From the IMG/VR virus record IMGVR_UViG_3300037325_000406, positions 1 through 27,380 of that record: DNA of 27,380 nt; one strand, 5' to 3'. Positions 2,577-24,274 of the stretch are shown here, one piece after another. The stretch is from a virus. The position numbers and the translations under genes are program-made. Position 1 is the first letter of the stretch; every line of letters starts with the position of its first letter. The notes below the pieces were generated by a model, which was not told the DNA's origin, ran no database searches, and saw nothing but the letters and a program-made list of their open reading frames with translations.

Positions 2577-3077
2577 CTACTTTTTAAATTTCTGCTTAAT
2601 TGCCTTGAGGTTGATTCCCTTTTTTGTATTCTGCTTAGGGTCTCTTCCGATTCTTTCTTTTCTTCCAACTCCTTGCCCCAAAGGTCTCCGAGTTCGTTCC
2701 CTATACACGCTTAGGTGTCCTTCACGTTCCGCCGCCCTTACCCTTTCAACATCTCTTTGGTATTTCATATCCGTGTTTAGAGTTCGAGGACCTTCTGGTT
2801 TCGGTACTTCCTTTCTAGGGGCTGGAGAAAGCCGAGCTGGGTTGGGTTTTCCAGAGTCTTTTAAAAGATTCTGAGGTTGTTTTCCAGAGCCTTTCCGGTT
2901 TTTAAGAGCTAAAGCTGCGACCCCGACTCCTCCAACAACACCTAAGCCGATAGCCGCTTTCTTCTTATTGCTAAGCTTACCTTTTTTCTTCCGTTTACCC
3001 TTTAATGCCCGACTAATCTTTTCTCTAGCTTGAGCACCAAGAGGCTTACGTTTTTTTGCGAACTCTAAGTATCCCAT
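2577..3077 (-). CDS. basic KISRAL-motif protein with YLEF leader
   Basis: A 166-residue protein; ATG start overlaps the upstream stop (TAATG). It begins MGYLEF-AKKRKP; after the F the sequence aligns with the true N-termini (M-AKRRKP) of the genes at 1693 and 2095, suggesting a removable six-residue leader. KISRALKGK lies at 20-28, a hydrophobic Gly/Ala segment (AAIGLGVVGGVGVAALAL) at 41-58, and the tail holds GQGVGRKERIGRDPKQN and GINLKAIKQKFKK. It is a close tandem duplicate of 3077-3583. Predicted substrate of the phage protease at 18482-19420 (inference). Role unknown; DNA condensation or ejection are candidates. Confidence 0.8.
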   Translation of the reverse strand: MGYLEFAKKRKPLGAQAREKISRALKGKRKKKGKLSNKKKAAIGLGVVGGVGVAALALKNRKGSGKQPQNLLKDSGKPNPARLSPAPRKEVPKPEGPRTLNTDMKYQRDVERVRAAEREGHLSVYRERTRRPLGQGVGRKERIGRDPKQNTKKGINLKAIKQKFKK

Positions 3078-3583
3078 TACTTTTTAAACCTCTGTTTAAT
3101 TGCCTTTAGATTAATTCCCTTTTTCGTATTTTGTTTAGGATCTCTGCTAATTCTTTCTTTTCTTCCAACTCCTTGTCCTAAAGGTCTCCGAGTTCGTTCC
3201 TTATACCGGCTTATGTTGTCTTCACGGTTTGCCATCTTTACCTTTCCAAGCTGTCTGTCGTATTTCATCTGCTGGTTAAGAGTTAGACGACCTTTTAGTA
3301 TCGGTGGGAATGGCCTTTTAGGGCCTGGAGAAAGCCGAGCTGGGTCTGGTTTTCCAGAATCTTTTAAGATCTTTTGAGGTTCTTTTCCCGAGCCTTTCCG
3401 GTTTTTAAGGGCTAGCGCTGCGACCCCTAACCCCCCAGCAACCCCTAAAGAAATGGCCGCTTTCTTCTTATTGCTAAGGCTACTTCCTTTTTTCTTCCGT
3501 TTACCCTTTAATGCCCGACTAATCTTTTGTTTTACCTGAGCCGTAATGGGCTTACGTTTTTTTGCAAATTCTAAGTACCCCAT
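3077..3583 (-). CDS. basic KISRAL-motif protein with YLEF leader
   Basis: A 168-residue protein, the closest paralogue of 2577-3077 in both protein and DNA sequence, differing mainly in the middle (around residues 90-125). MGYLEF-AKKRKP at the N-terminus, KISRALKGK at 20-28, glycine-rich hydrophobic segment KAAISLGVAGGLGVAALAL at 41-59, conserved C-terminal VGRKERISRDPKQN and GINLKAIKQRFKK. ATG start. The two genes are joined by a TAATG overlap, fitting a tandem duplication followed by divergence. No known domain other than the NUMOD3-like helix is visible. Confidence 0.8.
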   Translation of the reverse strand: MGYLEFAKKRKPITAQVKQKISRALKGKRKKKGSSLSNKKKAAISLGVAGGLGVAALALKNRKGSGKEPQKILKDSGKPDPARLSPGPKRPFPPILKGRLTLNQQMKYDRQLGKVKMANREDNISRYKERTRRPLGQGVGRKERISRDPKQNTKKGINLKAIKQRFKK

Positions 3584-3592
3584 TTAGACCAC

Positions 3593-3982
3593 TTACTTTT
3601 TAAGTCTCCGCTTAATTGCCCCGAGGTTAATTCCTCTTTTCGTATTCTGTTTAGGGTCTCTTCCAATTCTCTCTTTTCTTCCAACTCCGGTGTAGGTTTG
3701 CTCACCACGCGCCGAAGTAGCTCCTTCAATTGGGTCATTATTTCGACCATTATCCGTAGCTCCGGCGAGTAGTCCTTGAGGCTGAGACTTTCCTTTACGC
3801 TGAGCTAAGACTGCCGTAGCAGCACCTAGACCTCCGGCAACCCCTAAAGAAATGGCCGCTTTCTTCTTATTGCTAAGCTTACCTCCTTTCTTCCGTCTCT
3901 TTCCTTTTAATGCCCGACTAATCTTTTGTCTTACCTGAGCCGTAATGGGCTTTCTTCGTTTTGCAAATTCTAAATATGCCAT
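3593..3982 (-). CDS. basic KISRAL-motif protein with YLEF leader
   Basis: A 129-residue shorter member of the same family. MAYLEF-AKRRKPITAQVRQK leads into ISRALKGKRRKKGG; residues 41-60 are the hydrophobic Gly/Ala segment (KAAISLGVAGGLGAATAVLA), and the tail keeps GVGRKERIGRDPKQN and GINLGAIKRRLKK. The central Pro-rich spacer of the two preceding paralogues is largely missing. ATG start. It is the first family member after the tail-terminator candidate at 4002-4493, so the array sits directly after head-tail joining genes, where a tail-tube gene would often be expected. Confidence 0.8.
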   Translation of the reverse strand: MAYLEFAKRRKPITAQVRQKISRALKGKRRKKGGKLSNKKKAAISLGVAGGLGAATAVLAQRKGKSQPQGLLAGATDNGRNNDPIEGATSARGEQTYTGVGRKERIGRDPKQNTKRGINLGAIKRRLKK

Positions 3983-4001
3983 CTTTCCTTATTTTACTTT
4001 T

Positions 4002-4493
4002 CTAACTGTTCTGATATAGATCTTGAAACCCAATATCAAATCTTAAAAACGGGTAAATCGTATTTGTTAACTCATTAGCCGTTAACATATAGTTTGCCGC
4101 ATAGTTTTGCTGATTGGCCGCTGGAGGAAGCAGATCTTTAGTTGTCTGGCTATATTCCTGAAGCAGGTAATTTAACTGTTTTCCTACCCAGTACATTAAG
4201 TCGGGTAGAGTTCTTAAGTCCGGGTAACTTATGCTATACGTGATAGTCGCACTAGTATTTGTTAAAAACGTTCCTGGACGAAAGGTATCTCTACTTCGGT
4301 AGACTTTGAGTAAGGGAAACTCTGAAACGGGAACTCCGATATCATCGAAGTTTCGGGTCCCCTTTACCACAATAATATTGGGTAAGTTGGGGTTCTTAAG
4401 TCTCTCTTCCTGGTACCTTGTATTTATTCTATCACGCAAGTACAATACGAGATCTTGGCAGTATTCTTTCTCTCCTAAGAGCAGTTCTACCAT
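4002..4493 (-). CDS. putative tail terminator / head-tail joining protein
   Basis: A 163-residue acidic-neutral protein whose ATG directly follows the stop of the upstream gene. It has no basic repeats, unlike its neighbours. Predicted mixed alpha/beta: an N-terminal helix (about 10-35), a strand-rich centre (NIIVVKGTRNFDDIG, PLLKVYRSRD, SATITYSISYPD) and a helical segment (LPDLMYWVGKQLNYLLQE, 95-112). The size, the order after a tail-completion candidate (4926-5444) and the layout are typical of siphovirus tail terminator or minor tail proteins. I cannot point to a diagnostic motif, so the assignment rests on size, fold impression and position. Confidence 0.45.
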   Translation of the reverse strand: MVELLLGEKEYCQDLVLYLRDRINTRYQEERLKNPNLPNIIVVKGTRNFDDIGVPVSEFPLLKVYRSRDTFRPGTFLTNTSATITYSISYPDLRTLPDLMYWVGKQLNYLLQEYSQTTKDLLPPAANQQNYAANYMLTANELTNTIYPFLRFDIGFQDLYQNS

Positions 4494-4919
4494 TTATAGG
4501 AACCTTGCGAGAAAAGAACGACTCTCAAGTTTACCTTTTGCTTTATTTCGGGTATCTCGACTTTGCTCAAAAGCTTTACCCGATTTATAGCCATAAACTT
4601 TAGCCATGTTTGCAGGTCTATTTAAGGTCTTAACAAGCCCATCTACGTCTTTTTGGGTATAACGCTTACCTACCAGATCACCTCTTTTGTCGTTATACTT
4701 TTTGGCGATACCTACTATCTGGTCACCATCAACACTCTTCATGTGGCTATCCCAGTCTTTTTGCTTCTCTCGGTAACCCGCGTTCTCTTTTCTAATCCGG
4801 GCGATTGTAGTAAAAAAACCTCCCTCTTTTTTCTCTTTCTTTTGTTTGTTTTTTGTAAGAGCTCGACTAATCTTCGCTTTGTGAGCTGCGCTTAAAGGCT
4901 TTCGCTGTGTTGTTGTCAT
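4494..4919 (-). CDS. basic KISRAL-motif protein without glycine-rich segment
   Basis: A 141-residue basic protein with ATG start. MTTTQRKPLSAAHKAKISRALTKNK (1-25) is the clearest NUMOD3-like version and is nearly identical to the internal copy in the 466-residue protein at 6680-8080 (RRRKPLTAAHKAKISRALTQN). The rest is charged and helical (around GGFFTTIARIRKENAGYREKQKDW) and lacks the Gly/Ala hydrophobic segment of the 851-3982 genes. It lies between the two tail-completion candidates, so it is co-expressed with virion proteins. Function unknown; DNA or RNA binding is plausible from the motif and charge. Confidence 0.7.
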   Translation of the reverse strand: MTTTQRKPLSAAHKAKISRALTKNKQKKEKKEGGFFTTIARIRKENAGYREKQKDWDSHMKSVDGDQIVGIAKKYNDKRGDLVGKRYTQKDVDGLVKTLNRPANMAKVYGYKSGKAFEQSRDTRNKAKGKLESRSFLARFL

Positions 4920-4925
4920 TGGGTA

Positions 4926-5444
4926 TTACTTAATTGTTGTATTTTTATCGAACTTATCTTCTAGACCGTCGGCTTTAAGAAACACCTTAAGATAGGCTTC
5001 CGAGAGTTTATCTAAGAGTTGGGGGTGGAAGAACACAATAGGCCGTAGCTCTTGCAGACGGTCAGCGTAAGGAATCTTTGTTCCAAAAGAGTACTCGTCT
5101 TTTTCAAAGGTGTTAATTAGGTTAAAGTTGTATGTTGTAAGAGAGTTCATTAAAGCCCCACTATCAATATACACTCTACCGTTAGCCCTCTCAGGGTTAC
5201 TGAGCAAGTAGCTATGACTTAGTTGATGCCAATACTCTCCTCCCCAAACACCCCCGCCTGTTACAGTTGGCGGACTAGACGAGAATCTTTTACGTAAATC
5301 CTCCATCATAACTTCGCCTAAGGCTTTCTCAACCTCTACACGAAAGTCACTATCGTCGTCTAGTCGTTTTTTAAGTCTGCTGAGAAACGACTCGTCTTCT
5401 TCTTTATAGTTAAAGTCTTTTACGTCTAAGCTAATCTCAAGCAT
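4926..5444 (-). CDS. putative tail completion protein (HK97 gp10 / Mu gpG-like)
   Basis: I choose the ATG at 5442-5444 (protein MLEISLDVKDF...) because AAAGGAGA lies 7 nt upstream; a longer TTG-initiated version to 5465 is less likely. About 172 residues. The pattern of an early helical region ending in LRKRFSSSPP, a WGGEYW segment, an IDSGALMNSLT box and a later FGTKIPYADRLQELRPIVFF is the usual signature of phage virion-morphogenesis/tail-completion proteins (SGxLxxS..., YAxxxxxxxPxxxF). Such proteins join the tail to the neck. The first bases overlap the end of the frameshifted gene 5437-6017. Confidence 0.6.
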   Translation of the reverse strand: MLEISLDVKDFNYKEEDESFLSRLKKRLDDDSDFRVEVEKALGEVMMEDLRKRFSSSPPTVTGGGVWGGEYWHQLSHSYLLSNPERANGRVYIDSGALMNSLTTYNFNLINTFEKDEYSFGTKIPYADRLQELRPIVFFHPQLLDKLSEAYLKVFLKADGLEDKFDKNTTIK

Positions 5445-6017
5445 AAGGAGTCTCCTTTCTTCCAAATCTCTTCTTAAGACTGGACAGGATTTTTCTAGCT
5501 TTAACGGCTCGAGGACCCGGAGAGATTGATTTAACTCGTTGTTTAGCTGAATCTATGTTAAAGACGCGTGTTAAACCGGTTGAAAGACGACTAGCGGGTT
5601 TTTGGTAAGTTAAGGCCGGGACTCGAGAGTAGTCGGGACTAAATTTAAGTACTTCATAGCTTCCTGGAATATCGACAGCTCCTGTTGGGCTGTCTTTGTC
5701 TGTCTCTTGACTAGGGGCATAAAAGTTTCCTATTTTTTCTGGAGTAGATTTTCTTATATCGTTAAGAGCTTTATTATTATGCACAGTAGCTACCGCTAGT
5801 TTCGTAATCTCTGGCTTATCTATTTCAACTATTCTACGTTGAACTTGACTTTGTTCTACGGCTTTGTCCGCAAGTAACTTTTTCTTTACAGCCCTACGCA
5901 ATCGACCAGTACTTTTACTCTTTTTCCAGATTTAGTCTTTCGAAAGAAAGAATTCCCTTTACCTATAGGAGTTCCCGCTGTCTCCAAGTTTTTTTTCCAA
6001 CTACTAAAATTTAACAT
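5437..6017 (-). CDS. hypothetical protein with apparent frameshift
   Basis: Two reading frames together make one gene. An ATG at 6015-6017, overlapping the upstream stop as TAATG, opens a 43-codon frame (MLNFSSWKKNLETAGTPIGK...) that stops at 5886. The downstream frame (5437 to about 5931) has no ATG at its 5' end, only a TTG at 5899-5901 with no clear ribosome-binding site. Rereading one A in the five-A run at 5921-5925 joins them as ...TKSGKKSKSTGRLRRAVKKK..., about 193 residues, basic at the N-terminus and ending FGRKETPYA, reminiscent of the VGRKE tail motif of the basic array. It may be a sequencing indel, a mutation or a recoding site. Family not recognised; a neck or tail role is suggested by position. 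Confidence 0.55.
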
Positions 6018-6676
6018 TATAAAAACCTGTAATCAGGATCAAGCCATTCGACTCCGGGAGTTCGATTTCGGCTGTGGCGGGGGTCTGAGTCTTCTGAAAA
6101 GTATTCGTCTCCATGTTTCTTTCGGCCTCCCATTGGAACTACATAAGTGTAGTTACGGGTGATAGTATCCTGTCTCTCTCCCTGGCCTAGAAGCTTCTCC
6201 CCCGGAAGTCTGAGAGGCTGCTGTTCGGGCTGACCAACTAAAGAGTTTTGAGGTGCAGGTTGCGTTGGAATAAAGATGTTATGTCCAGCAGTTAAAGCCG
6301 CTAGCATAAAGTGAGCCTGTCTACTTAAATCAGTAGAGGACCCTCCTATATCGGCGGCTGGAACAATAGGGCTAGTACCTTCGAAGTGAACCTGTATCAG
6401 ACTACTAATGACTAGACATTCAGTCATATCCTTCATAATCTGTACAGTGATTTCGCTTGTTAGCAGCAGGGGGATAACATAAATCTGCCCTAGAACTAAG
6501 TTAAGGTATGCTTCTTTTTCATCAGCGACTTGCATGACCAATGCAGGATCAACTACCTGGCCACTAGCAGCCTGGCCATAGCCTGGAATAATAGTTATAG
6601 GTAGTTCTTCAGTTAGATCAATCTCAAGTCGTCCACGGAGCCTTCTAGCTATGTCTGAGAGGGTTGTGTATCTCAT
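6017..6676 (-). CDS. putative head-tail connector/adaptor protein
   Basis: A 219-residue protein, ATG start. The N-terminal 130 residues are largely helical with an opening MRYTTLSDIARRLRGRLEI that recalls DUF1320/gp36-like head-tail adaptors (an early YxTxxDL-type segment), followed by helices DEKEAYLNLVLGQIYVIPLL and ITVQIMKDMTECLVISSLIQVHF. The C-terminal third is Pro/Gln/Gly-rich, polar and probably disordered (PTQPAPQNS...PGEKLLGQ), ending in an Arg/Asp-rich tail. It precedes tail-completion candidates, as connectors normally do. Family assignment is tentative; no catalytic motif is present. Confidence 0.45.
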   Translation of the reverse strand: MRYTTLSDIARRLRGRLEIDLTEELPITIIPGYGQAASGQVVDPALVMQVADEKEAYLNLVLGQIYVIPLLLTSEITVQIMKDMTECLVISSLIQVHFEGTSPIVPAADIGGSSTDLSRQAHFMLAALTAGHNIFIPTQPAPQNSLVGQPEQQPLRLPGEKLLGQGERQDTITRNYTYVVPMGGRKKHGDEYFSEDSDPRHSRNRTPGVEWLDPDYRFL

Positions 6677-6679
6677 GAG

Positions 6680-8080
6680 TTAGGGGATAATTCCTTTTGC
6701 GCGTAACTTAGCTGCAAAACCTTTGGCTACCTTTTTGAAGGATTTTGCGTTTTTAATTTTAGTCTTCAGAGCGGCTTTTGCAAGGCCGATGCGCTCCTTC
6801 TGGTAAGGGGTTAAACCTTTTTCACCAAAGGCTCTACCGATACTTCCGACTCCAATACCGACCCCGGCAACACCTGCCCCGACGGAAGTAATCCGACGGT
6901 CTGTAATGCCACTCTTCATGGCTTCGCGAGTAATCTCCCCCGTTTTGAATCTATCAAAAGTACTGACCGCTTGAGAGCCAATAGCAACTACGGTTCCGAT
7001 AGTGGCTAGCTTCCTCTGGTTCTTATAGAAGTCCACCTCTTCGTTAGATTGACTAGGATTGTTCTGTGTTAAAGCCCGACTAATCTTGGCTTTATGGGCA
7101 GCAGTAAGGGGCTTACGTCTTCTACTGCCTCCGGACTTTTTTCCTTTTTTCCGCTTCCTGGAAGCTGCAAACTGTAAAAGCTCCTCACCTTCAAGCTCTT
7201 TTCTCTTTCCAAACTCTAACCAGAAATTTTCAGACGAGAAACCGAATATTTGTTTTCTTTTAGCCGAATCTTTCCTAGCTCGATTCTTTAGCACAGAAAA
7301 GAACTTCGCAGCCCCGCGACCTACCTTATACTCGGCACTTCCTTTATCGGGATCTGAATTTTGCATTTCAGAGGTATACGCTTCCTTGCCTTGTTTTGCG
7401 GCCTCCACTCTATCCGTAACGGGAGATAGCAATTTTTGAGTAGAAGCTTTTTTCTTTTGGAAAGCTTTTCCAAGACTTCGGCCTCTTTTACCCCAGGGGT
7501 CTTCTACATCAGGAAAAGGGTTGTTTAGCTCTTTCTTAAAGTTAGCCTTTGCTTTTTGAAAATTTCCTTGAAAGTGTTCTTGCGTTACTTCACCAGCTTT
7601 CTCAACGGTAGCTTTAGTCTTTTGAACGACTTCTTTTTGAGCCTGTTTTACCGTTGTTTTAGCCCCCTCGTAGAGGTCACTAGGAATATCGGCGGCGGCA
7701 GATTTTGCTTCGGTAACAGTCTTATTTAGTTTTGAAGCCGCAAAGACGCCCCCTCCTAGTACGGCTCCTGCACCGGCCACACCTCCAACAACTTTTACAG
7801 CAACTGCGACTTTAGCTGCATTTTTTTTCTTTTTCGCTCCAGCCCGAGCCGCCAATCGATCTTCAAGGTCTAACTTTAAAATGCTATTTTGAAGACCAAC
7901 GTTGCTATTTCGAAGACCAATATTCGTTTTTTGAAGTCCATAGGTCTCTCCAAGACTCGCTTTAGCCTTACCGAAAGCTCCGGGCTTTTTATTTTTGGAA
8001 TTTTTGCGCCCTCTCCTAGAGAGAGATTCACTAATTCTTTTTTTCCAAAGAGCTTTATTCTTAAACTTTCTATTTCTCAT
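6680..8080 (-). CDS. modular basic protein with two NUMOD3-like helices and internal WLEF site
   Basis: A 466-residue, strongly basic protein with ATG start and no clear ribosome-binding site. Order: NUMOD3-like helix (KNKALWKKRISESLSRRGRK, 7-26); three 7-residue repeats (GLQKTNI, GLRNSNV, GLQNSIL, 48-68); a lysine run then a Gly/Ala hydrophobic segment (VKVVGGVAGAGAVLGGGVFAA, 95-115); a helical, probably coiled-coil region (120-185); SSENFWLEF-GKRKE (282-295); LLQF-AASRKRKKGKK (301-315); a second NUMOD3 helix (RRRKPLTAAHKAKISRALTQ, 320-339); and a second glycine-zipper stretch (SVGAGVAGVGIGVGSIG, 399-415). The second half looks like a whole array-type basic protein fused behind a predicted protease site. 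No known family recognised. Confidence 0.75.
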   Translation of the reverse strand: MRNRKFKNKALWKKRISESLSRRGRKNSKNKKPGAFGKAKASLGETYGLQKTNIGLRNSNVGLQNSILKLDLEDRLAARAGAKKKKNAAKVAVAVKVVGGVAGAGAVLGGGVFAASKLNKTVTEAKSAAADIPSDLYEGAKTTVKQAQKEVVQKTKATVEKAGEVTQEHFQGNFQKAKANFKKELNNPFPDVEDPWGKRGRSLGKAFQKKKASTQKLLSPVTDRVEAAKQGKEAYTSEMQNSDPDKGSAEYKVGRGAAKFFSVLKNRARKDSAKRKQIFGFSSENFWLEFGKRKELEGEELLQFAASRKRKKGKKSGGSRRRKPLTAAHKAKISRALTQNNPSQSNEEVDFYKNQRKLATIGTVVAIGSQAVSTFDRFKTGEITREAMKSGITDRRITSVGAGVAGVGIGVGSIGRAFGEKGLTPYQKERIGLAKAALKTKIKNAKSFKKVAKGFAAKLRAKGIIP

Positions 8081-8276
8081 TTAGTTTAACTACGTTCTTA
8101 TTACTTATGATATCGTCTTTAGCCTTTAAAGTTTGTAGTCCACTCCCAAGCTTTTTCGGGAGGTAGCGCTTTGCACCAAGCTCTTTCCCGATCTTTGAGG
8201 ACAGGGTAAACATCCACGCCGATATCGAAATATAGGATAGGCCTGTAACTAGATTTTGAAATTCCCAAACACTCAC
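8070..8276 (-). CDS. small hypothetical membrane protein
   Basis: A 68-residue frame with a GTG start one base after the stop of 8278-8652 and an 11-nt overlap with the 466-residue gene. It contains one hydrophobic stretch (LVTGLSYISISAWMFTLSS, about residues 9-27) followed by a basic tail (KIGKELGAKRYLPKK). It fills an otherwise empty gap in the operon, which supports it being real, but the GTG start lacks a good ribosome-binding site and there is no recognisable family. An alternative is that this is an untranslated spacer. Confidence 0.4.
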   Translation of the reverse strand: MSVWEFQNLVTGLSYISISAWMFTLSSKIGKELGAKRYLPKKLGSGLQTLKAKDDIISNKNVVKLNEK

Positions 8277-8277
8277 T

Positions 8278-8652
8278 TTACTGCTTCTTTTTGTTTTTAA
8301 ATACCGGCTTCTGTTCGGCTAAGTACTTTTTGCTTGGGGGACCGAAACCCCTAACAGCACCATATCCGGGCTTTTCTCCCCCTGGGCCACTTCGAACCCA
8401 GCCTCCTCTTTGCGCTGTCTTAAGCTCGGAATCCGTTAAACTACGAACTTTACTTACAGAAGACCCGCCTCTTCTAAGTTTTGTTCGGGCTTTAGTAATA
8501 GCCGCATTTCGGTCTTTAGCTTTAACTACAATAGCAGTTCTACGGCCAGCAAACCAAACTCCTCTAACATCTTTCTCTCTTGTAAAAGACTTTACTCTTG
8601 TTCCATCTTTTCTCTTATAGGACGGTACTTTAGTTCTTGTTTTTTTACTCAT
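8278..8652 (-). CDS. small basic phage protein
   Basis: A 124-residue basic protein with ATG start, first gene leftward of the divergent promoter region at 8653-8699. The N-terminus contains SYKRKDGTRVKSFTRE, close to a short Y(T/K)RxDGTxVxxxxR motif found in many small phage and bacterial proteins of unknown function. The centre (AKDRNAAITKARTKLRRGG) is helical; the C-terminus is Gly/Pro-rich (RSGPGGEKPGYGAVRGFGPP) and lysine-ended. No KISRAL helix. Function unknown. Confidence 0.6.
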   Translation of the reverse strand: MSKKTRTKVPSYKRKDGTRVKSFTREKDVRGVWFAGRRTAIVVKAKDRNAAITKARTKLRRGGSSVSKVRSLTDSELKTAQRGGWVRSGPGGEKPGYGAVRGFGPPSKKYLAEQKPVFKNKKKQ

Positions 8653-8699
8653 TTAATGTAGTGCTAACACTCTCTTATTCAGTATAACTTGAGGTAACT
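8653..8699. promoter_or_regulatory. divergent intergenic promoter region
   Basis: These 47 bases separate the leftward basic-protein block (ATG at 8652) from the rightward HD cassette (ATG at 8700). AGTATAAC (8681-8688) gives TATAAC as a -10-like box on the plus strand, 11 nt before the ATG; its complement GTTATACT gives TATACT on the minus strand. GAGG at 8691-8694 is the ribosome-binding site of the plus-strand gene. The same octamer occurs at 24285-24292. No clear -35 box. Confidence 0.4.
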
Positions 8700-8963: not shown

Positions 8964-9203
8964 ATGAAAGTAGTAGAGTATATTGATTGGAACGGAGATA
9001 CTAAAACGCGTTCTATACAAGAACATGTATTAGAAGCTCTTACCCGAAGTAACATCGAAACAAACATTAGCGCTATTGCTGACGTGCTAGGAGCTACCAT
9101 TGATGCCCTTATTCAAAAAGGTCTTTTAAAAGAAGAAGACCTGAGGCCAGAGTTCTTTACACTATTCAATAGCGAGGAGAGAATTATCGATGTCAATAAG
9201 TAA
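8964..9203 (+). CDS. hypothetical small protein in HD cassette
   Basis: A 79-residue acidic protein. ATG immediately follows the preceding stop codon, and AGGAG lies a few bases upstream within that gene. The sequence is mostly helical (SIQEHVLEALTRSNIET, ISAIADVLGATIDALIQKGLL) with a possible helix-turn-helix feel but no diagnostic residues. Its 3' end overlaps the start of the HD gene by 14 nt in another frame. Function unknown; co-expression with a nucleotide phosphohydrolase suggests an accessory role in nucleotide or host metabolism, which is inference. Confidence 0.6.
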   Translation: MKVVEYIDWNGDTKTRSIQEHVLEALTRSNIETNISAIADVLGATIDALIQKGLLKEEDLRPEFFTLFNSEERIIDVNK

Positions 9204-9720
9204 CTGGGTACTTACTCGTACGGGAAAAAGGTTCTATCCAGCAGCCCCCGTATTGAAAGACATAAGTATTATCGATATTGCTTGGTCTCTATCAATGCAG
9301 TGCCGATACACTGGGCACACCAATCGGTTTTATTCAGTAGCCGAGCATAGTTTATACCTCGCCGAGTTTGCAACTCCTGAAAATCAGCGGATGGCTCTTC
9401 TTCACGATGCTAGCGAAGCTTACTTAACCGATATTGCGGCTCCCGTTAAGCAGCAACTTATAAACTACTCGACTATGGAGGCAACTCTTCAAGAGGCTAT
9501 TGCGATAAAGTTTGATCTCCCCCTTAAGATTCCCGAAGAAGTTAAAGAACTGGACCGTCGAATTGTTCTAGACGAACTTGCCTTCTTTATGGGGGCTAAT
9601 GGAAATGACTGGGGAATAGCCGGAAATAAACTCGGAGTAATCTTTAACGCAGATTTCTCGCCAGAGTATTACTACCGTAAGTTTCTAGCGAAGTTTGACG
9701 AGCTCAGGACTCCCCTTTAG
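9190..9720 (+). CDS. HD-domain phosphohydrolase (YfbR/phage nucleotidase-like)
   Basis: A 176-residue metal-dependent HD hydrolase. The arrangement RYTGHTNRFYSVAEHSLYLA (39-58) with H53, LLHDASEAYLTDI (70-82) with the H72-D73 pair, and the later ELDRRIVLDE (120-129) is the classic signature of small phage and bacterial HD phosphohydrolases that dephosphorylate (deoxy)nucleotides. Full length for the family. Likely role is adjusting nucleotide pools during infection; some relatives (DatZ) are dATP triphosphohydrolases linked to aminoadenine genomes, but no PurZ- or MazZ-like partner is visible here. It ends 17 nt inside the convergent gene at 9704-10096. Confidence 0.88.
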   Translation: MSISNWVLTRTGKRFYPAAPVLKDISIIDIAWSLSMQCRYTGHTNRFYSVAEHSLYLAEFATPENQRMALLHDASEAYLTDIAAPVKQQLINYSTMEATLQEAIAIKFDLPLKIPEEVKELDRRIVLDELAFFMGANGNDWGIAGNKLGVIFNADFSPEYYYRKFLAKFDELRTPL

Positions 9721-11232: not shown

Positions 11233-11259
11233 TCTTTAAAAATACAAAGGTTTACCCTT

Positions 11260-11265
11260 ATTATA
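11260..11265 (-). promoter_or_regulatory. putative -10 box upstream of the M15 peptidase
   Basis: Minus-strand TATAAT lies 27 nt before the peptidase ATG and just downstream of the terminator at 11272-11294. No convincing -35 at 17 nt. The terminator-then-promoter order suggests a fresh transcription unit for the lysis-type gene. Confidence 0.4.
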
Positions 11266-11271
11266 GACATT

Positions 11272-11294
11272 AAAAACCCCCTTAAATTAGGGGG
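11272..11294 (-). terminator. rho-independent terminator after the signal-peptide gene
   Basis: On the minus strand, CCCCCT, a six-base loop (AATTTA), AGGGGG, then TTTTT: a six-base-pair GC-rich stem with a U tract, 8 bases after the stop codon at 11303. A textbook intrinsic terminator, ending the tail-fibre/signal-peptide transcription unit. Confidence 0.85.
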
Positions 11295-11302
11295 CCGGGG
11301 GG

Positions 11303-15542: not shown

Positions 15543-16658
15543 CTAGTCTTTAACCTGTAAGGCGTAGAGTAGTTTAGGATCGGGGAACACTGGAAGAACA
15601 GTAGCAACACCTTGAGTTACGTCAATAGGTGGTATAGGCTGTAGTTCACGGGTAACCACGTAGACTCCAGTTTGACCATCGTTTTCCAGAGTAGGACCCA
15701 TTGCTCTCTTACCCATGTCGGGAGAGAGAAATACGATCATGTTATCTTTCAGGAAACGTACGTTAGTTGTCGATTGATTGCTCATCTCATCTTTGTACAT
15801 TTCGTCAAAGGTGACGATCTCGGGAATACCGCGAGCTTTTAGAACATCACTTAAGAGGTCCATGCTCACAGTACCCACAGTAATAGCGGTACGGGAGTTA
15901 ACAGACTCTTTAGTGGATTTCTGTTCCATAAGGTCGATGCGTAGCTTACGGCTCATAACAATCTTATCAGGAATAAACCCGTTAGTATCGTTATAGTTAG
16001 TAATCGCGTCTTCTAAGTCTTTCATCCCTGTAGCCGTTTCATACTGATCCCAGCGAGCTTGGCCAGCTAGAGCAGCAGGAAAGTGGTTATAGGTAATGTC
16101 ATTACCATTACGGTAATCAATGACTGTTGGGAGTTTGCTACGAGGGTCAACTCTTTCGATTTTCCCTGTTTGCAGAACTTCCCAGGATAGAGCATCCAGT
16201 AGTTCAACTTGTGCTCGGGCCATCTGTTCGACTGTTCCAAAGAGGAACTTAGCGAGGTCTTCGTTAGAGCCAGGAATTACTTCCCCGGTTTTCATATCTC
16301 TGGTTGTTTGAACCATGATACGTTTGAGGGCGGCTTCTTCGATAGCTTTTTTCATCTCCCACTGACGATCTTCATCGTAGAAGAAGGAGAGACCAGTTTT
16401 CAGCAATTCAGCCTGAATTCTGCGGAACTTCCCGTGCTGTGTAACAGGGGGCTCAGTTCCGTATGCGATGACACTCGCCACAGTCTCAATACGCTCCAGG
16501 GCGTAGGCTAAGAAATTGCGGCTTGTGTATGTCTGGAAGGGCAGATAGCCATCCAGTAATTTAGATCTTTTTTTAAGACTATGAAGCGTATCGTCAATAA
16601 CAAGTTGAGCTACTCCTTGTTGATGCGCATCAGATAGCCATTTGGCAATCCAACCCAT
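15543..16658 (-). CDS. major capsid protein (lambda gpE family)
   Basis: A 371-residue protein; ATG preceded by GGAG. The layout matches the phage capsid E family: N-terminal helix (AQLVIDDTLHSLKKRSKLLD), a strand region (ETVASVIAYGTEPPVTQHGKF), RIMVQTTRDMKTGEVIPGSNED, a long helix (TVEQMARAQVELLDALSWEV), VIDYRNGNDITYNHFPAAL before a helical D-type segment (WDQYETATGMKDLEDAITNY), then FIPDKIVMSRKLRIDLME and the C-terminal MIVFLSPDMGKRAMGPT and VFPDPKLLYALQV. It forms the HK97-fold icosahedral shell. It directly follows the decoration gene, the D-E order of lambda. No EF-type cleavage motif is seen, so it is probably not processed by the phage protease. Confidence 0.85.
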   Translation of the reverse strand: MGWIAKWLSDAHQQGVAQLVIDDTLHSLKKRSKLLDGYLPFQTYTSRNFLAYALERIETVASVIAYGTEPPVTQHGKFRRIQAELLKTGLSFFYDEDRQWEMKKAIEEAALKRIMVQTTRDMKTGEVIPGSNEDLAKFLFGTVEQMARAQVELLDALSWEVLQTGKIERVDPRSKLPTVIDYRNGNDITYNHFPAALAGQARWDQYETATGMKDLEDAITNYNDTNGFIPDKIVMSRKLRIDLMEQKSTKESVNSRTAITVGTVSMDLLSDVLKARGIPEIVTFDEMYKDEMSNQSTTNVRFLKDNMIVFLSPDMGKRAMGPTLENDGQTGVYVVTRELQPIPPIDVTQGVATVLPVFPDPKLLYALQVKD

Positions 16659-16676
16659 GGGTTTTAAATTCTCCGA

Positions 16677-17522: not shown

Positions 17523-17543
17523 CTTTTTATTTAATCTCCTCGA

Positions 17544-18419
17544 TTAGGTATCTTGCTTTAACATTTCATAGCTAGCTTCAATTTGGCTGGCTAAGGTTTC
17601 AATTTCGGATTCATCGTATCCGTCATATTCTTCACCTTCGTAGGCAGAACTAAACTCGAAAGATGGTCCTAACGCTTCGAATACTGCGAGAGTAAACTCG
17701 ATGTTGGATAGTCTTTCGATAGGAGTGCTTTCCGATTCGTCACAAGCTGCCGAGAATTCCACATATTGGCTTTTCTCGTCTTGACCAAATAAAAGATGGT
17801 AGGCGCTAGGGGGCATAAATCCACCCTCAACTAAGCTACCCGCTTTCTGACTTAGATCGTCTAAGTATTCGGTAACGGCTTCCTTCTGACTCATTTCGTC
17901 GACAGCACTAGCATAGCGAGAGAACTGGCGCTGTAGAGCTGCTACTTGAGCAGAGGGCTCTTCATCGTACTCTTCATCGTACTCTTCCTCGTCATCGAAC
18001 TCTTCGTCGTCTTCGTATTGTCCGACAGCCCCCTCGTATTCGTCTTCCTCTTCATCATCTCCGTAGTCTTCCTCAAACTCCCCGGCCTCAATAGCCTCGA
18101 GAAGTTCTTCAGCGATATCGTAAGAAGCGACAGCACTAGCGTCCAGTCGATCAGCTTCGGAGTCAGTTTCACAAAGCTCTTGCAGAGTTTCTACAAGGTC
18201 TTCGGTGGGGAGCTGTTCACCGACCATTAGGCCGATAACTAGCTCTTCATTGATTTCAAATCCGGCATTTATTAGACCATCTGTGATGTCTTCAATGGCG
18301 TCATCGATATTGTCGTAATTAGCTTCCGCTAGTCTTAACAGTTCAGTACCAAATGGGTTTTCTGCAATAGCGCTAGAAAACTCAATTAGTCCCTCGAAAT
18401 CACCTTTATAAAAATCCAT
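17544..18419 (-). CDS. acidic scaffold-like protein with EF cleavage-type motifs
   Basis: A 291-residue highly acidic protein, ATG start. A helical N-terminal part (1-110) is followed by an Asp/Glu/Tyr-rich low-complexity region (113-155), then helices (QVAALQRQFSRYASAVDEMS; EAVTEYLDDLSQKAGSL) and an acidic C-terminus. Size, charge and place between protease and capsid genes suit an internal scaffold. Three motifs match the proposed protease site: LIEF-SSA (11-17), YVEF-SAA (219-225) and FEF-SSA (254-259). The FSRY segment (166-169) also occurs near the C-terminus of the protease gene product. Transcription probably starts at the promoter 18450-18478. No homologue recognised by motif. Confidence 0.6.
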   Translation of the reverse strand: MDFYKGDFEGLIEFSSAIAENPFGTELLRLAEANYDNIDDAIEDITDGLINAGFEINEELVIGLMVGEQLPTEDLVETLQELCETDSEADRLDASAVASYDIAEELLEAIEAGEFEEDYGDDEEEDEYEGAVGQYEDDEEFDDEEEYDEEYDEEPSAQVAALQRQFSRYASAVDEMSQKEAVTEYLDDLSQKAGSLVEGGFMPPSAYHLLFGQDEKSQYVEFSAACDESESTPIERLSNIEFTLAVFEALGPSFEFSSAYEGEEYDGYDESEIETLASQIEASYEMLKQDT

Positions 18420-18449
18420 TAGTTATTAGCCTTTATCACTACTACTATC

Positions 18450-18478
18450 ATTCTAGTCGGCATATAAAAAAACATCAA
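18450..18478 (-). promoter_or_regulatory. putative sigma70-type promoter for the scaffold-capsid genes
   Basis: On the minus strand TTGATG (18478-18473), a 17-base spacer, then TAGAAT (18455-18450), lying 31 bases before the ATG at 18419. Both boxes and the spacing match the vegetative consensus well. It would boost scaffold, decoration and capsid expression over the upstream minor head and protease genes. Confidence 0.6.
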
Positions 18479-18481
18479 CTG

Positions 18482-19420
18482 TTAACCTCTAACTTTTGCT
18501 TTTTTAAAAACTTTTGCATCTTGATATCGGGAGAATTTACTACTAGCAATATTCACTTTGTCTTTAGTTAATTTCTTAGGCATATTTTCGTCTTCACCTG
18601 TAACATTAAGGCCTGAACTCTCTTCTTCAGACTCCTCAGTTAAGCCAAACATCTCCTCTAACTCTTCAAGGGCATACTGCATAGCATCGTAGCTGGCCTG
18701 AATAGGGTTGTCTATTTCTTTACTTACTAACTCTTCATCACTCATAGAGGTGAGACTCGTCAAGATTGTAAATAAGTCTCCAACTAACTTGAAGTATTCT
18801 TTTTCCAGAACATTCTTTTTCTCTCTTCCCGAATATAGATCGTCAAAGCTTACGGCCTTAATCGGAATGTCGTTTCGGGAAGCTGGAACAACAGGGTCAG
18901 TTACGGGACTCGAAGCTTCCATTGCTTCAAACATGAGATAACCCGAACTGTCATTTTCATCAAAATTAAACTGGCTAAAGAGAGCTGGGCCCACGATAGC
19001 AGGTAACGGAGTGGCAGACACTTCAGCAAAAATTCCAAGGATGGGATCGATACCAGGGGAGAGGGTTCTAATAGATTTACTTAACACTGCGTCAACGGCC
19101 GCTTTGCCCTTAGCTACGACGTTATCCACGAATACCCCAAGACGGCCAATCAAGTGCTTGTACTTAGGATCGGGTAGATTGTCGGCGGTCAGAATCTCGG
19201 TGTAGAAATCACTTTCGATATCTCCGAGGTTATACTCTTGAGTTTTGTTATGGTCTCTCTGAAAGGGTACACGGCCTCCTTGAGCTAAGAACTGATTGGT
19301 TTTACTTACTAGGTCTTCGATTCGATCCTTATCAAAGATGTGAACCCGATGCTTGTTATCTTTATGTTGTCCCTCTACGAAGACCAGAGCGGACTTAGAG
19401 AGACGATATTCTTTTTTCAC
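18482..19420 (-). CDS. prohead maturation protease with scaffold-like tail (Mu I / S78-like)
   Basis: A 312-residue protein with a GTG start preceded by AGGAAG. Residues 1-155 look like a phage serine protease of the Mu gpI / S78 type: an N-terminal strand region, RVPFQRDHNKT with H57, a central GRLGVFVDNVVAKGKAAVDAV, SIRTLSPGID with S121, and IFAEVSATPLPAIVGPAL, matching the R-x-(L/I)-S-x-G/P...E(V/I)S...P pattern. Residues 160-166 (GYLMFEA) form an EF-like site at the domain boundary; beyond it is an acidic, helical scaffold-like tail (LEELEEMFGLTEESEEESSG) with a basic C-terminus (SSKFSRYQDAKVFKKAKVRG). Such proteins assemble inside the prohead, cleave themselves and other head proteins, and are then lost. 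Confidence 0.72.
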   Translation of the reverse strand: MKKEYRLSKSALVFVEGQHKDNKHRVHIFDKDRIEDLVSKTNQFLAQGGRVPFQRDHNKTQEYNLGDIESDFYTEILTADNLPDPKYKHLIGRLGVFVDNVVAKGKAAVDAVLSKSIRTLSPGIDPILGIFAEVSATPLPAIVGPALFSQFNFDENDSSGYLMFEAMEASSPVTDPVVPASRNDIPIKAVSFDDLYSGREKKNVLEKEYFKLVGDLFTILTSLTSMSDEELVSKEIDNPIQASYDAMQYALEELEEMFGLTEESEEESSGLNVTGEDENMPKKLTKDKVNIASSKFSRYQDAKVFKKAKVRG

Positions 19421-19423
19421 GTT

Positions 19424-22400
19424 TTAACTTCCTAAAAGTTTGTTAATTTCTTCGACTAAGCTTCTTAACTCCTCACTATACTGGGTTACCTTGTCTAAGT
19501 AACGCCCTGATAGGTCTTCAACTATTCCAGTTACATTCATTTCATAACCGTACTGACTGAGTTGCTGCGCATAGTTTCCGAGTTGTGTAATCTTAGATGG
19601 AGATATGGTAGGGGCATACTCAGATACCTTAACAATATCTGCTAACTTTCTTAAACTCTGCTCTCTTAATTCTAAGAGAAGAGTAGGGTTATCTGCAATA
19701 CTGGTTAATGCTAAGGTGCTCGGTTTATAGTTTTCGAGAACTGTGACTTTCTGCCTAACTTCTTGCTCAGCTAGGAAGTACTCACTATTAAATCTGTCTA
19801 AAGTCTCCCGGACACTGTTCTCATTCTTAGAAATCCGATTAAGCTTACCCGCTACTTGAGTCAAAGTACCTTTAGGACGCTTCGCTAGATTCTTTTCTAA
19901 GTCGGTGTTACGTATTACTTCAGCCATAATACGTCTATTAGCAACTAGGTCACTGTAACCGGGATTCGAAGAAGTGGTTGTTTTAAGCAAGTCATCGATG
20001 GCATTGACATACTGTTCTGCCTGTTGTCGGATGTTGGCTAAGTTAGGAACCTCTCCAGCTAAGGTTTTCTTGCTAATCATTGTCGGACTTCCTTTATCCA
20101 AAAAGACTCGGTAGCCGATAGCAAAGTCAGTGTCGACTCTTTGGATATTAGCTAGGTCAACAGGGCCCGCACTATTAGTAAAGACTCTTTGATAGGAAGC
20201 GTTCAACTCATCGACTAACTCTCGACCTACCGACGTTAGTTCTTTATTTAGAGCTTCAACAACCTTTGTTTTGATAACAACCGGGGGTAAGTCGTCAGCT
20301 CCGTAGTTACTAACGTACTGTCCTAATGTTTCAAAATCCTGGCTACTAACCCCCGAATTAATAACCTCAAGCATAGAGCTTTGCCTTGTCTCTAGGCTCT
20401 CTAAGAGGGCAGGCTCTGGAAGAAAAGGAATGTTTCGGCCTTCTAGGAGTTTAACCATCGAAGGCGGTAGGCTTGTCTTAAGCTCAGATATTACGGCTTT
20501 AACCTTATCCTTTCCAAGAGTTAGACCTTCCGCTCCCATGCTTAGAAGTTCAGGAATATTATCCTGTACATACTCGTCTAATTCATTCATTAAGTTGGAC
20601 TTAGATAGGAAGTAAAGAGCCCCTCCCATACCTAGGGCACCAGCACCCCCTAAGATCGCTGCTGAAATAATGGTATCCATTTGGCTAGGATCTTTTTTAA
20701 TCTCAGCCTGAGTTTTCTTATCGAGGTATTTTTGCATAAAGACTCCCGCATCGGTAACCATACTAGTTAGAAATCCAATGCGGTCTACTGTCTTATTGTT
20801 GACGACTTTCTTAAACTTCCTTTCAGCGGCAAAGAGAGTATCTATAATCTGGTTACGGCTATCCCCTCTTAACTCGGTTAGCTGAGCATACTCTTTCTCA
20901 GAAAGAGAATCTTGTAAGCCTTCGATATTCAGAATTTTATTAACTTCGTTAACGTTAGATAGGTCGACCTCCTCTCCTAGGATCTCATTAATCTTTAACC
21001 TCAACTCCTTTTGCTTTCTTTTAAGCAACCATTTACTCATCTTTTCCAAGCGAGTTCGGTTAGGCGTTTGCTGCCCTAAGAGTCGCGCTGCTTCGGCTTC
21101 AGTTAACTGCCCGGCCTGAAGTCTCTTTAAAATAAGGGCTTGGTCTTTCTTAGAAACCTTAGCCGCTGACATTTGCTTCTTATTTATTTTCTCCTCTTTC
21201 TCTCTATCTTCTTTTTTGTAGATAGGCTTAAGATAACTACGGCAGTTTAGGTGAGATGGAGGACACCAAATACCTACACCTTCAGCGTTCCTTGCGACTA
21301 GCTCACTGTTAGGAGGAGCAAAATGCGGGATTCTTGTTTTGGGATAAGGCTGACGGCCAATGTACGACTGAGGTAAAGACTCTCCGTCTGCTAGAGGTCT
21401 CATACCGATTTGAGCAAAGTCGGTAATCCTAAAGATAACTTTGTCTAAGGACCGACAGAAGACGCTCACTACAGGGTCATCCGCAGAAGTGTATTGAACA
21501 TACTGAACACCTTTGCTCATGTACGCTTGTAGTCGACCTAAGTTATAGGCTGCGGCTATCTCCGTAGATATTAGGGTAGCTGCGTAGGCTTCTGAAGAAC
21601 CCCCTGCTGAGTTACGGTTACTATCTCTTGCGTGCTTTAAGTCTTCCCAGCTAACTCGCCCATTCTTATGCGCTATATCAGGGTTAGTACGCTGAACTTC
21701 TTTTAGCTCGTCACTCGATAAGACAACTGTGTCTTCACTACGAGGAGTTACCTTATACTTCTTGGCTTTATATTTCTCAAGAATTATTCTCTTACGCTCA
21801 ATCTCAGCCCGTCGAGGATCGTTCTTAGCGACCTTAGCTTTATCTAAAGCCCGCGACTGCTTGTCTAAGTCCTGGTCATAGTTAGTTACCCCTGTTTGGA
21901 TATCCTCAGTTGTTGCCTTAGCTCCCATATCTGTTTGAAGCTTACCGTAGTCTCTCTGCTGTGTTCTCTGCACAGTCTCGAGACCTTGCAAGTAGCGAGT
22001 CTCGGGAACTAACTCTTTCTTAAGGTCACGTACTCTATCACGCTGGGTAGTTCTCTCTCTTTCCAAACCCTTTACTTCTTCTACAGCCGCCTTTCTTTCG
22101 GGACTGCCTTTTGGAAAGGTAGCAGCTCGAGTCTTAAGCTGTGTTAGTCTTCGACTTTTTTCTGAGACTTCTAAGGCATTTTCTTTAATTTGGGCTCTTA
22201 GGTCTCGGTATTTAGGATTGGTTTCGGTAGTATTTTCCCCTCCCTCTTCGTCTGAGCGAATGATTCTTTCGTGCTCGTCTACGTCATTTTGAACAGCTCC
22301 AAGGCGGTCAGCTCGTTCAATGTCAGTTCTCAAAAATCCTTGGGCTTCTCCTACTGCCTGTAGACGGGCTCTTCTGTCTTCGGGGGACGTTCCTAACTCC

Positions 22401-24274
22401 GGCTTAAAGCCCATCTCTTCACGAAGGAGTCTCTCAAGGTCTCCAAGCCGACGACCTTTTTCAGGACGAGTTTCGTTAACCCCAGGAGTTTTAAGATTAG
22501 TAATCCTTGTGTCGAAACGAAGAAGGTCACGTCTTATAGTTTCTGGTTCAGGGCTAACTCCTGTAAAGTGATCGGTTACCTGATCAATAGTTCCATCTTC
22601 TTCCTCAGTTAGCCGACCAAGTAGCCCATTATAATCACGAACCTTATAGCGATCATATATAGGCTGAACACGATTTCTTGCCGCCTGTTGGCCATCTCGG
22701 GTCTCTGTAATTTTACTGTTAAGTTGGTAAGCATTCTCATAGGAGTACGTCTCTTTCCCATTTGCCATAAGGTTATTGACATAACTATAGCCTGAAGTTT
22801 CTCCTACCCGATACTTCCGAATAGTGGACTTAAGAGTATCTTCAAGGTTACCTCTTTTCTGAGCTCTAGTCAGCGAGGCTGTGAGGCTTGTCTTTTCTTC
22901 TTGGGTTAGGGGTGTTGGAAGAGCCGCATTAATCTCTCGAAAGAGATCTGTTTGAGCAGCTTTAGTTGTAAGCAAACGATTCTTTTGGTCAGAACCGTAG
23001 ACCGGGTTCTTTAGAGTACTAGTGGGAGAACTTCGTCTAAAGGCTGTCGCGAGTTGCTCTCGAACAATAGCCTCCCGGGGACCTCTTTCATTACTTAACA
23101 CACTCCCTGCGCTAGACTTAATACCCTTCATAATACCCTGAGCAGCATAGGTCGGATCTTGTTGCCTAATGTACTCAGCTACCTCTTCTCGCAGCCCTTC
23201 TTGAACACCATCGGATAGGAATTTAGAAACCGAAGCTTTTCTTTTATCTAAGTAGACGTTAGAGAATTCTGATTTACGGTTCAACGCTGTATAAACGTTA
23301 TCAATAGTGTTGAACTCTTCTCTTGCGTCTGTAGCGATAACTCTCTTAAAAGCTTTGTCGTAGCTATTTATTTGAGCTGCATTGGCTTTAGCTTGTCGGT
23401 TTTTTGCCTTTAGATAGGAGGGAACCTTTAGCTCTCGTCGGTTTCTAACAGCGTCGGCATACTCCTGCTCCTGTTTTAGAGCTTCGTTTCTTTGTCTATT
23501 CTCTTCCAATAGTCGAGCTTGTCTTTCGGCCTCTGCCTTTCGAATCGCAGGGTCCGCTCTCTTGCTTTGGGGATTTGCGGCAGCTAGTTCTTTGGCCGCT
23601 TTTTCTTGAGCTAGTCGAGCATTGTGTTCGCTCAACTCTGCTTGGAAGCGAATTTGTTTGAGTTGGGCTTCCTGTTGCGTAAGTCTCAGTTCTCTAAGGT
23701 CGGTTTCCAAATACCCAATATTATCGAGGAGAAGACTAATGCGTTCTTCATCTTGAACTGGCGAATCGTATATCTCGTTGCGCTGTTCAATTAGTCGTCC
23801 ATACAACTCCTCACTAAGGTTTACATTTTTTACAGCCGCCCGAAACTCTCGGCCACTCGAAGTAATATCTTTTTTGATATCTCCTTTGGTACGATTTTTG
23901 GCAAACTCCACATACCCTAGAGAGTTGGAAGAGGTAAAGTCTAAAGGAGATGCTGGAGCCATGAACTCGGACTCCCCGTCTTTAAGCCCCCAGTACAAAG
24001 CTTTAGACCAAAGGTTATCAACTATGTTTGTGATAGCATTAGATAATCCACCTTTGACGTTTAGCTCTTTGGTTATAGCGGCTGAGTCTAAAACTGAGTC
24101 TTTGTTAAGGCCGCTCAGTAGGGTATCTACTGAATGGTCAAGCTTAGTAACTAAAACACCATTCCAGATATCTAAGAGAGCATCAAAGGTTCCATGAACC
24201 TCATACTCGTTATGCTCGACTTCTAAAACTGTATCAGCAAACTGGCTAATATCATTTAGGGAGGGTGCCATCAC
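19424..24274 (-). CDS. giant minor head protein with Mu F / SPP1 gp7-like domain
   Basis: A 1616-residue protein starting at GTG 24274 or the adjacent ATG 24271. Residues 1-110 are helical (FDALLDIWNGVLVTKLDHSVD; ITNIVDNLWSKALYWGLKDG). GYVEF-AKNRTKGD (120-132) is a predicted protease site. Residues 150-290 are charged coiled coil. Residues about 885-1020 form the phage head morphogenesis domain: ISTEIAAAYNLGRLQAYMSK, VQYTSADDPVVSVFCRSLDK, and PPSHLNCRSYLKPI with the conserved Cys/His pattern. A Gly/Ala hydrophobic stretch (AILGGAGALGMGGALYFL, about 1200-1220) resembles those in the small basic proteins. Usual family members are 250-500 residues, so this one carries large extra modules. It may be injected or attached at the portal. 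Confidence 0.78.
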   Translation of the reverse strand: MMAPSLNDISQFADTVLEVEHNEYEVHGTFDALLDIWNGVLVTKLDHSVDTLLSGLNKDSVLDSAAITKELNVKGGLSNAITNIVDNLWSKALYWGLKDGESEFMAPASPLDFTSSNSLGYVEFAKNRTKGDIKKDITSSGREFRAAVKNVNLSEELYGRLIEQRNEIYDSPVQDEERISLLLDNIGYLETDLRELRLTQQEAQLKQIRFQAELSEHNARLAQEKAAKELAAANPQSKRADPAIRKAEAERQARLLEENRQRNEALKQEQEYADAVRNRRELKVPSYLKAKNRQAKANAAQINSYDKAFKRVIATDAREEFNTIDNVYTALNRKSEFSNVYLDKRKASVSKFLSDGVQEGLREEVAEYIRQQDPTYAAQGIMKGIKSSAGSVLSNERGPREAIVREQLATAFRRSSPTSTLKNPVYGSDQKNRLLTTKAAQTDLFREINAALPTPLTQEEKTSLTASLTRAQKRGNLEDTLKSTIRKYRVGETSGYSYVNNLMANGKETYSYENAYQLNSKITETRDGQQAARNRVQPIYDRYKVRDYNGLLGRLTEEEDGTIDQVTDHFTGVSPEPETIRRDLLRFDTRITNLKTPGVNETRPEKGRRLGDLERLLREEMGFKPELGTSPEDRRARLQAVGEAQGFLRTDIERADRLGAVQNDVDEHERIIRSDEEGGENTTETNPKYRDLRAQIKENALEVSEKSRRLTQLKTRAATFPKGSPERKAAVEEVKGLERERTTQRDRVRDLKKELVPETRYLQGLETVQRTQQRDYGKLQTDMGAKATTEDIQTGVTNYDQDLDKQSRALDKAKVAKNDPRRAEIERKRIILEKYKAKKYKVTPRSEDTVVLSSDELKEVQRTNPDIAHKNGRVSWEDLKHARDSNRNSAGGSSEAYAATLISTEIAAAYNLGRLQAYMSKGVQYVQYTSADDPVVSVFCRSLDKVIFRITDFAQIGMRPLADGESLPQSYIGRQPYPKTRIPHFAPPNSELVARNAEGVGIWCPPSHLNCRSYLKPIYKKEDREKEEKINKKQMSAAKVSKKDQALILKRLQAGQLTEAEAARLLGQQTPNRTRLEKMSKWLLKRKQKELRLKINEILGEEVDLSNVNEVNKILNIEGLQDSLSEKEYAQLTELRGDSRNQIIDTLFAAERKFKKVVNNKTVDRIGFLTSMVTDAGVFMQKYLDKKTQAEIKKDPSQMDTIISAAILGGAGALGMGGALYFLSKSNLMNELDEYVQDNIPELLSMGAEGLTLGKDKVKAVISELKTSLPPSMVKLLEGRNIPFLPEPALLESLETRQSSMLEVINSGVSSQDFETLGQYVSNYGADDLPPVVIKTKVVEALNKELTSVGRELVDELNASYQRVFTNSAGPVDLANIQRVDTDFAIGYRVFLDKGSPTMISKKTLAGEVPNLANIRQQAEQYVNAIDDLLKTTTSSNPGYSDLVANRRIMAEVIRNTDLEKNLAKRPKGTLTQVAGKLNRISKNENSVRETLDRFNSEYFLAEQEVRQKVTVLENYKPSTLALTSIADNPTLLLELREQSLRKLADIVKVSEYAPTISPSKITQLGNYAQQLSQYGYEMNVTGIVEDLSGRYLDKVTQYSEELRSLVEEINKLLGS

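Follow-up and report, generated by a model that had tools for sequence, protein, structure and literature searches.

The window analysed here (IMG/VR virus record IMGVR_UViG_3300037325_000406, G000; 27,380 nucleotides, i.e., about 27 kb) derives from a tailed phage, several of whose proteins carry a short motif ending in Phe, as in YLEF↓AKK, where the arrow marks the candidate scissile bond. We consider it likely, at a probability of about 0.7, that these motifs are where the phage's own head maturation protease processes its substrates, in a T4-like system with Phe at P1. A group of freshwater phages, some infecting cyanobacteria, appears to mark its head-interior proteins with Phe-ending leaders of this kind. 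The motif in the window is real. Across the 8,268 amino acids of window protein, [YWF][LVI]EF[AGS] was observed six times, compared to a mean of 0.068 and a maximum of 2 in 2,000 composition-preserving shuffles, and the looser [LVIF]EF[AGS] nine times (shuffled mean 0.98, maximum 6; 2,000 shuffles). All instances on which the original prediction was built are present in the sequence and in place. Because the motif was defined post hoc in the window, and because three of the six strict instances belong to close paralogs, leaving about four independent ones, independent tests were sought in relatives, where recurrence of the motif is the measure. The claim rests on these relatives, the window by itself being insufficient to carry it.

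The closest named phages are the Pseudanabaena phages PA-SR01 and Pam2, with proteases 28-30% and capsid proteins 34% identical to those of the window. Many proteins of both phages carry M(Q/K/E)HFxxF at the N-terminus; in PA-SR01 this applies to 8 of the 165 annotated proteins (shuffles: mean 0.006, maximum 1). In an unsupervised search for any three-residue N-terminal pattern common to non-homologous proteins, M(Q/K)HFxxF ranked first in PA-SR01 (8 proteins) and in Pam2 (7), the shuffled maximum being 4, and the same search applied to lambda and a 50-kb part of T4 returned nothing above chance. Tagged Pam2 genes include those at 37932, 39106, 39862, 40482, 42825, 98812, 138659 and 139411. 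A further genome, G007, has three tags only and no significant unsupervised pattern; PA-SR01, Pam2 and G007 are mutually related, and their counts are not independent. The leader codons vary synonymously and the upstream DNA mostly differs, so that selection appears to act on the protein level; on the same grounds, we rejected duplication of a 5' DNA element as the origin of the shared leaders. Among the tagged PA-SR01 proteins, one has a match to PHROG 220 (minor head protein and DNA pilot; E-value 3e-6).

Two PA-SR01 tag copies are internal, each beginning at a Met inside a longer protein. In the first, an SNF2-type helicase (L006, 25081-26877, minus strand), MEHFANF lies at residue 128, beside the helicase domain. 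A relative of this helicase in L014 begins exactly at MKHFADF, and the annotated PA-SR01 start may therefore be too far upstream. In the second (4964-5920), the tag lies at residue 193 and is followed by a glycine-rich segment. Between two annotated genes of PA-SR01 there is also an unannotated 47-amino-acid open frame (L006, 4481-4624, plus strand) that starts MQHFANF.

A different leader is found in G011, a metagenomic relative of 117 kb (capsid protein 35%, protease 34% and terminase 37% identical to the window). Nine of its proteins begin with MFFLSD and a spacer ending in VEF, LEF, TF, SEY, NY or TY, before A, G, S or K, and all nine genes are on the structural strand (binomial 3e-5). Tagged genes lie on that strand beyond expectation in PA-SR01 (9/11) and Pam2 (9/10) as well as in G011 (9/9). 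In most tagged G011 proteins, a basic block such as GRGKDRKKRK or ARTLGAKDKKKRK directly follows the F/Y. When matches to a regular expression for this block (the KDKKKRK family) were collected from G011, L092, L089, L059 and the window, F or Y preceded 16 of 19, the exceptions being a false match in the window, an untagged start, and a match placed two residues into a block where EF↓ is present. Since MFFLSD is constant in G011 and stands apart from the EF↓ junction, targeting and cutting are suggested to be separate elements.

The position of the candidate cut is indicated by where homology begins: for the window paralogs, the Pam2 GYVK family and the KDKKKRK family alike, this is the residue directly behind the Phe. 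In Pam2, the sequences VNFGTIDF↓GYVKEANK, RSFEADF↓GYVKQANK, MQHFANF↓GYVKQANK and MEHFANF↓GYVKQANK (the first two preceded by further residues) align from GYVK on, and the leaders before it vary in length and all terminate in Phe. In the window, where the features described here are on the minus strand unless marked otherwise, three small basic proteins begin M(G/A)YLEF↓AK(K/R)RKP: the leader MGYLEF↓ occupies 3060..3077 (gene 2577-3077) and 3566..3583 (gene 3077-3583), and MAYLEF↓, with AKR next, occupies 3965..3982 (gene 3593-3982). The leader codons differ synonymously among the three. Two untagged paralogs (1693-2085 and 2095-2568, together 1693..2568) begin M↓AKRRKP, i.e., at the post-Phe position, and a leader cut after Phe, with Met removal in the untagged copies, would therefore leave tagged and untagged paralogs with nearly identical N-termini. 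About eight related small basic proteins have a KISRAL-type core in common. The tagged proteins of the window and of G011 are strongly basic, most with one glycine-rich hydrophobic segment. The leader letters of the window are not found widely: when IMG/VR was scanned at the DNA level for exact matches to M(G/A)Y[LVIMF]EFAK, followed by K, R or another residue, no other contig was hit (records very near the window were possibly excluded); a YLEF protein used as tblastn query against phage records gave no matches, and a search of IMG/VR for the paralog family gave one weak match.

Further candidate sites lie inside two longer window proteins. A basic protein of 466 amino acids contains WLEF↓GKR (in FWLEF↓GKR; F290, 7211..7222) and, with a RRRKPLTAAHKAKISRAL block downstream, LLQF↓AAS (in ELLQF↓AAS; F304, 7169..7180), and the 1616-amino-acid minor head protein contains YVEF↓AKN (in GYVEF↓AKN; F124, 23903..23914). 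At a similar distance from the N-terminus as F124, L010 and L011 carry VIEF↓E. The ELLQF↓AAS site was missing from the original prediction, as were SSKF↓SRY at the C-terminal end of the protease and NIEF↓T in the scaffold, which are taken up below.

The putative processing enzyme is a protein of 312 amino acids (18482..19420) which, judging by its relatives' PHROG 976 matches, its gene order and the invariant residues H57 and S121, is the head maturation protease. PHROG 976, head maturation protease, is matched by 10 of 11 aligned protease relatives (best 2.5e-8); the window protease has no direct match, and is 48% identical to the L010 protease, which does match. H57 and S121, the predicted catalytic His and Ser, are invariant in all aligned proteases including that of G011. 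The authors of the PA-SR01 paper reported an HHpred match to the Mu I family, E-value 4.5e-18 (PMC10286775). We detected nothing with hhalign of the protease against a single Mu gpI sequence, and a protease profile scan of 84,980 cellular species genomes gave no relative. Regarding a possible herpesvirus-assemblin or HK97-like protease fold, comparison of an AlphaFold model of the protease, a low-confidence model, with BFVD returned a capsid maturation protease (E-value 1.2e-6). In this model, a predicted protease domain (approximately residues 9-149) and a helical region (192-257) are connected by a very-low-confidence stretch (139-202) that holds F164, the Phe of the candidate linker site YLMF↓E (GYLMF↓EA, 18929..18940). 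The original prediction had set this site exactly at the boundary between protease and scaffold tail; it is a looser form of the motif, in a linker that the model leaves disordered. The Phe at position 164 is kept in all aligned proteases (13 proteases; alignments A5 and A6, 26-50% identical to that of the window), in columns reading YLMF↓E, IITF↓E or TANF↓A/S/T, with SYGNF↓G of G011 in the same linker. Near the C-terminus, the candidate site SSKF↓SRY (F296, 18533..18544) has counterparts in ESDF↓SRY and LAQF↓NLS near the protease C-termini of relatives. In G011 (L038, 7302-9153, plus strand), the C-terminal tail of the protease contains AAFSMADMEAIYNSENAEF↓GYRQ; the gene that follows has a near-identical leader, AAFSMEDYERLTRNAYQAAEF↓KRGKDKKK, the arrangement resembling a fusion of a tagged cargo protein to the protease.

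The order of genes on the minus strand of the window is minor head protein (1616 amino acids), protease, acidic scaffold, second head protein and major capsid protein. The acidic scaffold (291 amino acids, 17544..18419), thus placed between the protease and capsid genes, has homologs among 15 distinct scaffold sequences and carries three candidate sites: LIEF↓SSA in the disordered N-terminus (F14, 18378..18389), YVEF↓SAA (F222, 17754..17765), and FEF↓SSA (F256, 17652..17660) where the last domain helix ends and a disordered stretch follows. In all 15 scaffolds, the F222 and F256 columns are Phe followed by S/A/G/T, while the preceding residue varies. The F14 column is Phe in window-like and G011-like scaffolds and Leu in PA-SR01-like scaffolds. 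F14 and F256 are predicted to be at flexible or boundary positions. NIEF↓T (F242) was rejected as a site, the column being F/Y/I/K and not conserved. The linker Phe of the protease and the Phe at two scaffold positions are thus kept across proteins that are approximately 20-50% identical. The major capsid protein (15543..16658) has an N-terminus without a leader-type site, and is therefore not an obvious substrate.

Pooling 57 candidate sites, which were chosen by eye with the motif in mind so that the tally is descriptive only, P1 is occupied by F (52 sites) or Y (5), P1' by S/G/A in 43, and P2 mostly by E/N/D. The specificity (Y/W)(L/V)EF as originally proposed is too narrow: the constant features are Phe, sometimes Tyr, at P1 and a small residue at P1', with E/N/D/Q/H at P2. 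The broader proposal of shared protease-processing sites gains from the recurrence of Phe at P1, the homology that starts after it, and the conserved Phe of linker and scaffold, with cutting as the probable explanation.

The sites with their recurrence and conservation, the leaders common to many proteins and the mature homology starting after Phe are read directly from sequence; from them we infer cutting by the protease, head entry of the tagged proteins and the order of events, which would run as follows. Head-interior proteins would bear a short N-terminal leader ending in a hydrophobic or small polar residue and Phe, and this leader would draw them into the prohead's scaffold core. The protease would then cut after Phe, before a small residue (Ala/Ser/Gly); in the window paralogs, the leader would thereby be lost and the new N-terminus would be strongly basic. 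It would also cut its own linker at F164 and the ends of the scaffold, so that the core would be cleared before DNA packaging, and the 466- and 1616-amino-acid proteins would be cut internally likewise. The basic character of the tagged proteins, the PHROG 220 match and the structural-strand bias fit internal or ejected head proteins. Each phage group has its own leader, which by analogy with T4 is probably also a head-targeting signal.

Several observations weigh against the proposed cutting by the phage protease. The window alone yields no significant unsupervised leader pattern among non-homologous proteins, and just three of its approximately eight paralogs bear the YLEF leader. The AlphaFold model of the protease has low overall confidence (mean predicted local distance difference test score, pLDDT, of 50), and its best PDB match is weak (Kaposi's sarcoma-associated herpesvirus protease, E-value 0.014). 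Scaffold F222 is within a predicted helix, and its invariance may have a structural cause, so that a cut at this site is uncertain. The relaxed 4-residue motif can be expected by chance at a considerable rate, and its density rises only 1.4-1.7-fold on the structural strand, for which reason it was rejected as a whole-genome classifier. Context, i.e., leader position, linker and a following basic block, therefore matters, in line with the need for extended context noted from the outset.

The leader might instead be a head-targeting (scaffold-binding) signal only, with YLEF and HFANF not scissile and the cut made elsewhere or not at all, although we judge this unlikely. In T4, the ipI leader MKTFKEF contains the (F/Y)xEF pattern, and gp21 cuts after Glu, further along. 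By comparison, all 57 motif-chosen candidate sites here have Phe (or Tyr), and the leader letters differ from those of T4. T-even internal proteins have only such a leader in common (PMC3012670). However, in each of three unrelated protein families the homology picks up exactly behind the Phe; the Phe↓small junction also occurs at places with no need for targeting, namely the linker of the protease and the ends of the scaffold; and in G011 the constant MFFLSD is distinct from the EF↓ junction. A reading in which the sites are kept for structure or interaction, with an anchor Phe in scaffold and leader helices and a likeness between leader and scaffold that is partly chance, draws on the helical setting of F222 and on the chance background of a 4-residue motif. 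It is the more doubtful of the two, given that the leaders occur on non-homologous proteins far above shuffled controls, and that F14, F256 and F164 sit in regions that are flexible or at a boundary.

The leaders could also be removed by a host protease. Staphylococcal Prp cuts Phe↓Ala after a short N-terminal leader in ribosomal protein L27 and in capsid and scaffold proteins of phage 80alpha (PMC5744158, PMC9405229). This host-encoded enzyme recognizes MLxx(D/N)LQ(F/L)F↓A(S/H)KK, a site closely like YLEF↓AKK, with the same Phe at P1, small P1' residue and short N-terminal leader (PMC9405229, PMC5744158). Yet a maturation protease is encoded by the phages themselves and has matching sites in its own linker, the leaders vary among phage groups, and cyanobacteria are unmentioned in the text of the Prp review, such that we see very little chance of a host enzyme being responsible. 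Prp is a Cys-His protease, whereas the window protease (312 amino acids) has zero cysteines and is therefore not a Prp; the substrate set here also appears much larger. The suggestion that the site was undescribed must accordingly be narrowed, Phe↓Ala being known for Prp, while in open-access text we found neither a phage-encoded Phe-P1 network nor these leaders described.

Processing by the phage's own protease, the reading we prefer, shares with T4 one short N-terminal leader across otherwise unrelated head-interior proteins (PMC3012670), ipI starting MKTFKEF, and adjacent protease and scaffold genes ahead of the capsid gene. Here, otherwise unrelated proteins bear the same leader in PA-SR01, Pam2 and G011, and in the window the N-terminal leader is on paralogs only. 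Targeting and cutting were experimentally shown in T4 and are proposed from sequence in the present case. Among SPN3US gp245 and the phiKZ-type prohead proteases, one enzyme acts on many head substrates, with N-terminal propeptides down to 20 residues, and self-cleaves a C-terminal propeptide (PMC10052503). One protease with many head substrates, short N-terminal propeptides and C-terminal self-cleavage would be common to both systems, whereas the SPN3US sites are A-X-E with Glu at P1, and most propeptides there are long. A parallel for the PA-SR01 helicase, with MEHFANF adjoining its helicase domain, is DarB of phage P1, of which a 30-residue N-terminus suffices to bring a foreign protein into the head (PMC9024508). 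Head packaging of the PA-SR01 SNF2-type helicase like DarB is possible on this analogy; the P1 result is experimental, its leader sequence differs, and a shared Phe cut site is not described there.

Other features of the window were noted alongside. The minus strand also encodes the terminase, with an insertion, and other proteins, among them several small basic ones in a row; at 18-4919 (minus strand) these form a tandem array of approximately 8-9 paralogs with the KISRAL core, several with a glycine-rich hydrophobic segment. The large terminase subunit (24630-26963, minus strand) has an insertion of approximately 225 amino acids (residues ~101-325) that is absent from relatives, BLAST rejoining residues 100 to 326 in G011 and PA-SR01. 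The insertion has Pro first, after PPRHSK, and ends THN↓S (the arrow here marking its end), and the placement of W, C and T suggests an intein of class 3, which is a known class; terminase is included in a paper on mycobacteriophage inteins (PMC5050341). Amid the minus-strand head genes there are plus-strand genes at 24328-24624, 9190-9720 and 26999-27379, encoding an HU-like DNA-binding protein, a protein with a weak HD-domain match and a PAS-domain protein truncated by the window end.

A wider reading, to which we give slightly less than even odds, is that of a packaging code in a clade of freshwater phages that includes the Pseudanabaena phages. A Phe-ending leader would load diverse accessory proteins (basic glycine-zipper proteins, an SNF2-type helicase and a possible kinase-like fusion) into the head and would then be cut off by a Phe-specific phage maturation protease, with the leader letters swapped per lineage and the Phe↓small junction kept. 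PA-SR01 and Pam2 are cultured phages, and the PA-SR01 paper, which has only sodium dodecyl sulphate-polyacrylamide gel electrophoresis, calls for mass spectrometry (PMC10286775). If this reading is true, internal head proteins would be predictable from sequence among the orphan genes of these poorly annotated freshwater phages, and the proteins so predicted would probably be delivered into the host, including a helicase possibly acting like P1 DarB. The Glu-type sites known from T4 and SPN3US would be joined by a phage-encoded Phe specificity, and co-evolution of leader, scaffold and protease would be suggested.

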